Below, piece by piece: positions 27,930 to 30,433 of a stretch of DNA of 33,506 nt. Numbering within the stretch: the stretch's first letter is position 1; the number at the start of each line of letters is the position of its first letter. The notes beneath the pieces were generated by a model. That model was not told the origin of the DNA, did no database searches, and was given only the letters and a program-made list of their open reading frames with translations. The position numbers and the translations under genes are program-made. The stretch is taken from positions 1 to 33,506 of the forward strand of contig CALPNL020000002.1 in assembly GCA_943324925.2 (NCBI GenBank). Direction: 5' to 3'. This DNA comes from Chitinophaga pinensis (GTDB taxonomy: Bacteria; Bacteroidota; Bacteroidia; Flavobacteriales; Flavobacteriaceae).

Positions 27930-28877
27930 CTACTCTTTAGAAGCAATATATCTTTCCGCATCTAAAGCTGCCATACAACCGGTTCCAGCAGCAGTAATCG
28001 CTTGGCGATAAACATGATCTGCAGCATCCCCAGCAACGAATACTCCGTTAATATTTGTTTTAGATGTACCAGGAGTATTTATAATATATCCTGTTTCATC
28101 TAAATTAAGGAAGTCTTTGAATATGTCTGTATTTGGTTTGTGTCCAATAGCGACGAAGAAACCTGTTGCTGGGATATCAAAAATATCTCCTGAAGTTTTA
28201 TTTTTAGCTTTTACAGCGTAAACAACCTGGCCGTCTCCTAAAACTTCTACAGTATCATGATTCATTAATATGGTAATATTTTCCGTTTTACGAACTCTTT
28301 CTTCCATGATTTTGGATGCTCTAAAAGACTCACTTCTAACCAACATAGTCACTTTAGTACAAAGTTTTGACAAATAATGTGCCTCTTCACAGGCTGAATC
28401 CCCTGCTCCAACAATTACTACCTCTTGATTTCTATAGAAAAAACCATCACACACAGCGCATGCAGAAACTCCACCCCCGGTTTGCAAATAATGTTGTTCA
28501 GAAGGTAATCCTAAATATTTGGCTGTGGCTCCAGTTGAAATTATAACCGTTTCACAGTGTAACTCTTTAGTATCATTGATCCATACTTTATGAATATCCC
28601 CAGAAAAATCGACTTTGGTTGCCCAACCATCACGTACATCTGTTCCAAATCTTTGGGCTTGTTGTTGCAATTGAACCATCATTTCAGGTCCTGTAATACC
28701 ATCAACATATCCCGGGAAATTTTCAACTTCATTCGTTGTCGTTAATTGACCTCCTGGTTGTGTTCCTTGATATAAAACTGGTTTCATATTTGCTCTAGCA
28801 GCATAAATAGCAGCTGTATAACCAGCTGGTCCAGAACCTATAATTAGACATTTAATGTTTTCAACCGTATTTGACAT
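27930..28877 (-). CDS. trxB: Thioredoxin-disulfide reductase
   Basis: 'CLIIGSGPAGYTAAIYAARA', redox 'CAVCDGFFYRNQEVVIVGAGDSACEEA', 'VFVAGDAADHVYRQAITAAGTGCMAALDAERY'. Confidence 0.96.
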   Translation of the reverse strand: MSNTVENIKCLIIGSGPAGYTAAIYAARANMKPVLYQGTQPGGQLTTTNEVENFPGYVDGITGPEMMVQLQQQAQRFGTDVRDGWATKVDFSGDIHKVWINDTKELHCETVIISTGATAKYLGLPSEQHYLQTGGGVSACAVCDGFFYRNQEVVIVGAGDSACEEAHYLSKLCTKVTMLVRSESFRASKIMEERVRKTENITILMNHDTVEVLGDGQVVYAVKAKNKTSGDIFDIPATGFFVAIGHKPNTDIFKDFLNLDETGYIINTPGTSKTNINGVFVAGDAADHVYRQAITAAGTGCMAALDAERYIASKE

Positions 28878-28905
28878 TTTGAATTTAATTATATAATTAG
28901 AGGCA

Positions 28906-28913
28906 CAAAGGTA
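28906..28913 (-). promoter_or_regulatory. Bacteroidota -7 element (TACCTTTG) upstream of trxB
   Basis: Minus strand TACCTTTG matches TAnnTTTG. Confidence 0.5.
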
Positions 28914-28993
28914 AGTTTTATTTGAAATATTTTACACATAAAATAGAAGCAAATTATAATTAATAATAATAAATTTCATAATTCAAAATTCTG

Positions 28994-29023
28994 TTGTTTA
29001 AATAAAAAATAGTTCTATATTTG
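28994..29023 (+). promoter_or_regulatory. Bacteroidota primary sigma promoter of tRNA-Pro
   Basis: TTG (28994-28996), 19-nt spacer, TATATTTG (29016-29023), about 12 nt upstream of the mature tRNA 5' end. Confidence 0.75.
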
Positions 29024-29034
29024 CAGTCGGAAAA

Positions 29035-29109
29035 CGGGGTGTAGCGTAGCTCGGTTATCGCGCCTGCTTTGGGAGCAGGAGGCCGCAGGTTCGAATCCTG
29101 CCACCCCGA
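29035..29109 (+). tRNA. tRNA-Pro (anticodon TGG)
   Basis: Acceptor CGGGGTG/CACCCCG, anticodon arm CCTGC-TTTGGGA-GCAGG, T arm GCAGG-TTCGAAT-CCTGC; CCA not encoded. Confidence 0.95.
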
Positions 29110-29150
29110 CAAAAAAAGCTGAACATTATTGTTTGGCTTTTTTTATTTAT
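29080..29150 (+). repeat. Direct repeat copy 1: tRNA-Pro 3' half (variable loop to acceptor) plus terminator
   Basis: 71 bp AGGCCGCAGGTTCGAATCCTGCCACCCCGACAAAAAAAGCTGAACATTATTGTTTGGCTTTTTTTATTTAT; identical to 29442-29513 except for one fewer T. Confidence 0.97.
29110..29147 (+). terminator. tRNA-Pro intrinsic terminator
   Basis: AAGCTGAAC-ATTATT-GTTTGGCTT stem (two G.U pairs) followed by a T run. Confidence 0.85.
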
Positions 29151-29175
29151 ACAAGCCAATAAAAAAAAAAAACCT

Positions 29176-29418
29176 ATGTACTATGTCTATATTATTTACA
29201 GTGAGTCTACTTCAAAATATTACACAGGTCAAACTTACAATTTGAATAACAGGATTAGAAGACATAACTCTGGATTAAGCAAATCAACTAAATCGAGTTT
29301 ACCATGGAAATTAATTCACCAAATTGAATTTAATTCTAGGTCAGAAGCTATGCAATTAGAAATGTATATAAAAAAAAGAGGTGCTAAAAGATACTTAGAG
29401 AATATAAATGAAATCTAG
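29176..29418 (+). CDS. GIY-YIG nuclease family protein (80 aa)
   Basis: 'MYYVYIIYSESTSKYYTGQTYNLNNRIRRHNSGLSKSTKSSLPWKLIHQIEFNSRSEAMQLEMYIKKR': GIY-like YVYII, YIG-like YYTGQT, catalytic Arg (NRIRRH) and Glu (SEAMQLE) positions kept. Confidence 0.95.
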   Translation: MYYVYIIYSESTSKYYTGQTYNLNNRIRRHNSGLSKSTKSSLPWKLIHQIEFNSRSEAMQLEMYIKKRGAKRYLENINEI

Positions 29419-29426
29419 TTAAAGCG

Positions 29427-29441
29427 TCACGCAGGGCGTGA
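29427..29441 (+). other. Perfect hairpin at the anticodon-arm position of the partial tRNA copy
   Basis: TCACGC-AGG-GCGTGA, immediately abutting the repeat at 29442. Confidence 0.85.
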
Positions 29442-29513
29442 AGGCCGCAGGTTCGAATCCTGCCACCCCGACAAAAAAAGCTGAACATTATTGTTTGGCT
29501 TTTTTTTATTTAT
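29442..29513 (+). repeat. Direct repeat copy 2: tRNA-Pro 3' half plus terminator downstream of the GIY-YIG gene
   Basis: Same 71-bp sequence as 29080-29150 with one extra T (72 bp); lacks acceptor 5' strand, D arm and anticodon. Confidence 0.97.
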
Positions 29514-29644
29514 CTTTCAAAGTAAAATAGGACTCTTGCTAATAAATATCATTATTAATTTAATTCACTTCAATAAAACAAAAAAAAAACATCTAAAAAA
29601 AACGTTAAATAATCAAATCCATACGTAAACTAATTATTATAAAA

Positions 29645-29668
29645 AATGTATAAAATATATTATACATT
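29645..29668. promoter_or_regulatory. 9-bp perfect inverted repeat just upstream of the LytTR regulator start
   Basis: AATGTATAA-AATATA-TTATACATT, ending 6 nt before the ATG at 29675. Confidence 0.6.
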
Positions 29669-29674
29669 CGTAAG

Positions 29675-30433
29675 ATGAATAAGATTATTATTGTTGACGA
29701 CTCTCCTACCTCAAGAATAACATTAGAAAAATTTTTAATCAAAAATTTTTCTGATAAATATGAAATTGTTGCCATTTGTGAAGATGCAAATTCTGCTAAG
29801 AAAGCGATTAAAGCAAATAAACCAGACCTCATTTTTCTTGACATCGAAATGCCAAATAAGAATGGATTCGAATTATTAAAAGAGATTAAATCCATTAAAT
29901 TTGAAATCATTTTTATAACCTCTCACACCGATTATGCTATTAAAGCAATTAAGGCAGACGCTTTGGATTATTTGATAAAACCGATTAACTTAAAAGATCT
30001 TACAATTGCAATCAGAAGATTTGAAAACAAAAAAATTACAAAGGACAACACAACAAATAAATCAATAGAAGCAAAATCAAATAATGATTTAATTAAAAAA
30101 ATTGCTTTTTCAACTGATACTGGTTATGAGTTCATTAATATAAACTCTATTTTGTTTTGTGAAGCAAACAGTAATTATTGTAGAATTTTTTGTATTGATG
30201 GTAGAGAAATTCTTTTGGCCAAAACACTTAAAAATATTGAAGAACAACTTGCAGCAACGACACTATTCCATAGAATTCATAAATCCTATTTAGTTAATCT
30301 AAATTACATTCTTAGATTAAATAAATCAGGCTCTTTAGAAGTTGAACTTCATAATGGCATTAAGCTACCGGTTTCATTCAGACAAAAAGAAAATTTCTTA
30401 AATGCCTTCAAAGAGAATGTAGAAAAAAAATAG
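29675..30433 (+). CDS. LytTR family DNA-binding response regulator
   Basis: REC 'PDLIFLDIEMPNKNGFELLKEI', 'DALDYLIKPINLKDL'; LytTR 'TLFHRIHKSYLVNLNYILRLNKSGSLEVELHNGIKLPVSFRQKENFL'. Confidence 0.95.
   Translation: MNKIIIVDDSPTSRITLEKFLIKNFSDKYEIVAICEDANSAKKAIKANKPDLIFLDIEMPNKNGFELLKEIKSIKFEIIFITSHTDYAIKAIKADALDYLIKPINLKDLTIAIRRFENKKITKDNTTNKSIEAKSNNDLIKKIAFSTDTGYEFININSILFCEANSNYCRIFCIDGREILLAKTLKNIEEQLAATTLFHRIHKSYLVNLNYILRLNKSGSLEVELHNGIKLPVSFRQKENFLNAFKENVEKK

Follow-up and report, generated by a model that had tools for sequence, protein, structure and literature searches.

Short dispersed DNA palindromes of bacterial genomes include the CGTC-type REPs, among them dRS3 and RPE-4/-6, which are defined by a CGTC, TGTC or CCTC tag, A-T first pairs and a CCA tail, and for which no dedicated enzyme has been reported (Di Nocera et al., 2013; PMC3733652). 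In the REPtron, which joins REPs to a RAYT, one small nuclease gene lies between dispersed palindromes, the enzyme being an HUH tyrosine transposase. Homing and group I intron endonucleases comprise enzymes with a GIY-YIG core and lineages specialised to one gene site, and homing insertion destroys the target site. Integrative elements of tRNA sites are bounded by an intact tRNA on one side and a tRNA tail on the other. Finally, COG2827 proteins in Caulobacter are encoded by small UvrC-like genes whose role is unknown (PMC1839093).

The locus described here, in a DNA stretch of 33,506 nt (the window), resembles several of these systems, but in its defining features it agrees fully with no known family. 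Its palindrome is comparable to the CGTC REPs, and the dRS3 core TCCCGC..GCGGGA is common to several tRNA-Pro tails, but the window palindrome lacks the tag, the first pairs and the CCA tail and is situated inside a tRNA copy; the CG preceding it belongs to the tRNA, and other tRNAs give GCATC or ATATC. The arrangement of a REPtron is reproduced by sister GIY-YIG genes, whereas the window enzyme is a GIY-YIG protein from a putative tRNA-targeting branch that carries a replacement half; from its sequence, the window element may operate in the manner of a REPtron that uses another enzyme. It shares with the homing endonucleases the GIY-YIG core and the specialised lineages, but has no intron, consists of only the 80-aa catalytic domain and leaves alongside an intact tRNA-Pro that is identical to element-free copies. 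Unlike elements with a tyrosine integrase, the cassette is of ca. 360 bp, contains no integrase and bears a palindrome at the junction.

Organization of the tRNA-Pro locus

The order of features in the window is summarized in Table 1. The preliminary description had placed a perfect 6-bp hairpin exactly where the partial tRNA copy should have its anticodon arm, 8 nt after the nuclease stop codon, and both statements were verified. It had also noted a weak D-arm likeness just upstream, whose G is the final base of that stop codon; homologous loci show that this is a real remnant, because L067 keeps CGGTTATCGCG and L160 keeps CAGCCCGGTTAGCGCG, and L090 retains nearly the whole 5′ half of a tRNA-Val.

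Table 1. Features of the tRNA-Pro locus, with positions in the window.
Feature	Coordinates	Strand	Evidence or remarks
Intact tRNA-Pro(TGG)	29035..29110	+	ARAGORN; Rfam RF00005, 69.2 bits
Anticodon arm CCTGCTTTGGGAGCAGG (CCTGC-TTTGGGA-GCAGG), 17 nt	29063..29079	+	Replaced in the partial copy
Terminator 3′ of the intact tRNA	29111..29144	+	Second copy behind the tail, 0.95 identity
GIY-YIG nuclease gene, 80 aa	29176..29418	+	Pfam PF01541, 5.5e-17; stop codon TAG ends at 29418
D-arm remnant GTTAAAGCG	29418..29426	+	7/9 vs. tRNA GTTATCGCG at 29054-29062
Palindrome TCACGC-AGG-GCGTGA in place of the anticodon arm; inferred element end signal	29427..29441	+	TCACGC 29427-29432, AGG 29433-29435, GCGTGA 29436-29441
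Displaced tRNA-Pro 3′ tail AGGCCGCAGGTTCGAATCCTGCCACCCCGA: variable loop, T arm, 3′ acceptor strand	29442..29471	+	30 nt, perfect match to 29080-29109 of tRNA-Pro(TGG)
Terminator, second copy	29472..29507	+	0.95 identity to 29111-29144

ARAGORN and Rfam identified only the upstream tRNA-Pro and did not call the partial copy, which lacks the 5′ acceptor strand and in which no closed acceptor stem was found. An Rfam scan of positions 28800-29700 did not reveal a group I intron, with nothing but tRNA above threshold. In the interval separating the two tRNA copies, the 80-aa GIY-YIG gene is the sole ORF, and no tyrosine or serine integrase gene occurs there. Shuffles of the same 34 nt yielded the window hairpin by chance in about 0.6 % of cases, so the window locus by itself is only suggestive and its relatives are decisive.

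The element-linked tRNA-Pro is identical to element-free tRNA-Pro genes, including the second tRNA-Pro of the window genome. This second gene (G000:C134:5450-5525, L138) stops exactly at a contig end, and the element contigs L002, L156 and others likewise end at a contig edge; assembly breaks at such repeats may hide further copies of the element.

Recurrence and covariation of the junction palindrome

We searched 100 relatives as well as 297 genomes from the phylum, and the regions fetched from them showed that the succession of a tRNA, a GIY-YIG gene and a tRNA piece interrupted by a palindrome is recurrent across Bacteroidota, affecting tRNAs for Pro, Ala, Val, Met, Asp, Asn, Phe, Arg, Gly and others. 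Tandem arrays reach six copies in G007 (L056), five in G022 (L057) and four in G282 (L159). There is also a mirrored form, in which the gene follows a broken 5′ half and precedes the intact tRNA (L156, L164, L004, and L009, L010, L012, L014 and L015 from Patescibacteria). The patescibacterial loci L009, L010, L012 and L015 are at tRNA-Ser/Tyr genes and contain one or two adjacent 15-bp palindromes (e.g., TCCGCC-NNN-GGCGGA). The short hairpin is conserved in relatives from different bacterial phyla. At G014, the orthologous tRNA-Pro lies beside trxB without the element, with synteny held on the trxB side only.

The position of the palindrome depends on the tRNA. It replaces the anticodon arm at Pro, Ala, Val, Arg(TCT) and elongator Met genes, and the 3′ side of this arm plus the variable loop at initiator Met genes and in one Asp lineage; the site is the T loop in Phe, the D loop in Arg(TCG) and several places in Asn. 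In the tRNA copy, the outer part, distal to the gene, is perfect, whereas the part facing the gene is decayed. Both this asymmetry and the mirrored form are expected of an element that is lodged within a tRNA gene and supplies it with a replacement half. In the pseudo-tRNA tails from L067, L068, L069, L155 and L172, the T arm contains an additional palindrome. Over the pseudo-tails of L082 and L083 ARAGORN calls a tRNA-SeC, which is probably false, and annotation pipelines may repeat this error. The flanking terminators are near-identical at many loci and different at others; near identity suggests local duplication or conversion.

The preliminary description had proposed a search for hairpins next to the tRNA tails of relatives. 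With the tail counted from the first position homologous to the intact tRNA, a perfect 6-bp stem ending no more than 3 nt from the tail was present in 45 of 56 distinct junctions, compared to 0.85 % in shuffles; these junctions are not fully independent, although they represent many families and about ten tRNA identities. A palindrome occurs at the junction in all 75 located tails (52 loci), a lenient count in that arms of 5 were allowed and the best nearby palindrome was chosen. A number of tRNA labels and palindromes that escaped the automatic search were instead identified visually.

In the Pro group, the stem contains three constant pairs, T-A, C-G and G-C at positions 1, 4 and 5, and three variable ones. 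Fourteen cells changed on both sides and none on one side only while remaining paired, with 99 % of the cells paired, and the covariation score exceeded those of all 500 shuffles and of all slid versions. Since the 5′ arms were set at the homologue of the anticodon-arm start, with loops as a fixed spacer, this count is biased towards structure, and the shuffle test of the junction stems is the less biased of the two. The hairpin is not, then, unique to this locus, but conserved across relatives with compensatory changes in the stem. Among 102 stem cells there is no G-U pair, which suggests a structure of DNA and not of RNA. When folded as single-stranded DNA, the tail forms the same two neighbouring hairpins as the 3′ half of the tRNA, in keeping with a structure-specific enzyme.

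The nuclease, its sister genes and dispersed palindromes

The window protein matches PF01541 with 62.3 bits, above the cut-off of 22.6, and its score with TIGR01453 is far below the cut-off. The catalytic residues Y5, Y16, R26, H30 and E62 are present and invariant in 29 sequences. Values of dN/dS were mostly 0.04-0.3, and 0.10 between the window and its nearest relatives, where dS is near saturation. The nearest solved structures are UPF0213 and SLX1 proteins (1zg2, 1ywl, 7cq2); SLX1 is a structure-specific nuclease, but the window protein has no extra domain and is encoded in a cassette embedded in a tRNA gene. A search of phages, plasmids and viral contigs gave no match to it, which speaks against carriage of the element by phage or plasmid and counts against the mobile-element reading given below.

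The nuclease phylogeny, inferred from 89 columns and with many open forks, was used only for its starred groups and for change counts. The tRNA identity changed 27 times on this tree vs. 94.5 times after shuffling, and initiator Met, Phe and genes not associated with tRNAs each formed a single supported group. The stem class follows the tree even within one tRNA isotype (11 vs. 21.0 changes; 0 of 300 shuffles), and in L022 the tail resembles another tRNA, yet both its nuclease and its stem, TCACGC, are of the Pro type. Part of this agreement between stem and nuclease could result simply from the linkage of adjacent DNA.

Related GIY-YIG genes situated away from tRNAs, of which 21 were compared, are also associated with repeats: 17 share a strong repeat between the upstream and downstream 300 nt, as opposed to four of 155 control ORFs (Fisher, 1.7e-16), which were taken from ten 20-kb stretches in seven genomes of the same genus and supplement the repeat-poor window genes. 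Two of the four control hits are transposase-like, and one control hit is a RAYT-like transposase gene between repeats (L205:16281-16832). Many of the sister-gene repeats have CGTC or TGTC at the foot. For one GIY type, each of the six intact genes has the 13-mer GTCACTTCGAGTG on either side, and the 13-mer and the gene tend to occur in the same genomes (6/7 vs. 9/53, P = 6e-4).

Plasmid and chromid records from Sphingobium, Rhizobium, Sinorhizobium and Neorhizobium contain GIY-YIG genes between inverted canonical CGTC REPs, as in the alphaproteobacterial loci L219, L220, L222 and L223. Of the ten records examined, two have no such repeat (L218, L221), one has it on one side only (L215) and two have other inverted repeats (L216, L217). 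One Neisseria GIY-YIG gene lies among dRS3 repeats, a weak case given that dRS3 is abundant. No link of GIY-YIG proteins to REPs or tRNA tails was found in open PMC articles. Nucleases of this family that lie between dispersed REPs probably move those repeats much as proposed below for the tRNA element, and we regard as an evenly balanced proposition that COG2827-like GIY-YIG proteins are the missing mobilising enzymes of CGTC-type REPs across bacteria, with one branch that parasitises tRNA genes, opening them at an arm hairpin, inserting with its own replacement half and leaving a REP-like hairpin instead of the arm.

Genome-wide pattern searches with reversed-pattern controls place the window hairpin in a broader class of palindromes. 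TCCCGAT..ATCGGGA has 53 copies in G006, where the reversed control has one; for a shorter form, the corresponding counts in G015 are 107 and one. The inspected copies of these dispersed palindromes were mostly outside long frames. In G006 (L096-L115) an 18-bp perfect palindrome, TCCCGATAGCTATCGGGA, is repeated about 50 times, often within other repeats, and this genome has no GIY gene closely related to that of the window; another agent may therefore move palindromes in genomes of this kind. Additionally, G013 (L116-L135) contains a dispersed repeat of ca. 60 bp (tagccctgatt ... gcagga) with the TCCCGAT palindrome as hairpin tip. In the window genome, TCMCGC-type palindromes number three vs. 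none for the control: the window gene has one, on one side only, and two further copies are elsewhere in the genome. The window-type nuclease may move such dispersed palindromes.

Origin and role of the palindrome

On balance, the window probably contains a nuclease-only mobile element in a tRNA-Pro gene, with the hairpin as its DNA end signal, and the palindrome would most likely serve for nuclease recognition or insertion. The 3′ part of the intact tRNA-Pro, from the anticodon arm on, would be borne by the element, which brings the missing half so that one tRNA remains intact. The element's own GIY-YIG nuclease would recognise the palindrome at the DNA level and nick or cut hairpin or cruciform DNA; since tRNA arms are hairpins of the same size and in the same place, it would open the tRNA gene there. 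Host recombination would then copy in the tRNA half, the terminator, the nuclease gene and the palindrome, and recombination between the repeated tails would generate arrays. We infer recognition and cutting of both the palindrome and the arm hairpins, followed by copying-in, from sequence comparisons. The identity of the restored tRNA to the element-free gene counts against this reading, because the gene should then stay a target.

The palindrome could instead be an independent REP-like sequence that landed in a dead tRNA copy and is unrelated to the nuclease. The over-representation of TCCCGAT..ATCGGGA in many genomes of the genus, including G006, would agree with this, and pseudo-tails often acquire second palindromes (L067, L068, L069, L172); nevertheless, an insertion would add to the arm and not replace it, only three palindromes of the type exist in the window genome, every located tail carries one at its junction, and the tRNA position is the same within each nuclease clade (Pro, Phe, initiator Met), making this origin unlikely, if still of some weight. 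We also consider it quite unlikely that the palindrome is an immunity scar which, following the logic of homing, destroys the cut site in the displaced half and prevents re-cutting. It does lie where the identity of the two copies stops, in a position that differs by tRNA type, but the adjacent restored tRNA has the element-free sequence, so that the site would be present anyway, and such a scar has no need for a covarying palindrome with fixed T, C and G positions.

A function as RNA, either stabilising the 3′ end of the nuclease mRNA or as a tRNA-like molecule processed or bound by the tRNA machinery, is very unlikely despite the short distance to the stop codon, the retention of the T arm and the compensatory changes. 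The palindrome precedes the gene in the mirrored elements L156, L164 and L004, the stem cells contain no G-U, the 5′ acceptor strand is missing, and a terminator-like hairpin with a T run exists downstream anyway. The preliminary description had viewed the hairpin and T arm as the conserved terminus of a GIY-YIG element or, alternatively, as an RNA imitating a tRNA core; the first part is supported, whereas the structure of the partial copy and the mirrored elements lend no support to a tRNA mimic, with tails often broken by further palindromes (L067, L068, L069). A cleave-and-rescue system, in which the nuclease is paired with a recoded, cleavage-resistant tRNA half as antidote, would account for the replacement half and the conserved catalytic nuclease, but we find it scarcely credible: a recoded antidote is contradicted for Pro at the sequence level, as tRNA-Pro is the same with and without the element, also in the second copy of the window genome.

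Many bacterial genomes are rich in CGTC REPs and dRS3-like repeats. The GIY-YIG proteins provide a concrete candidate for the enzyme of these repeats, and with it a possible role for genes annotated merely as UvrC-like or GIY-YIG family. The tRNA-associated branch would persist in tRNA genes while keeping them intact, a lifestyle that has apparently not been described before.
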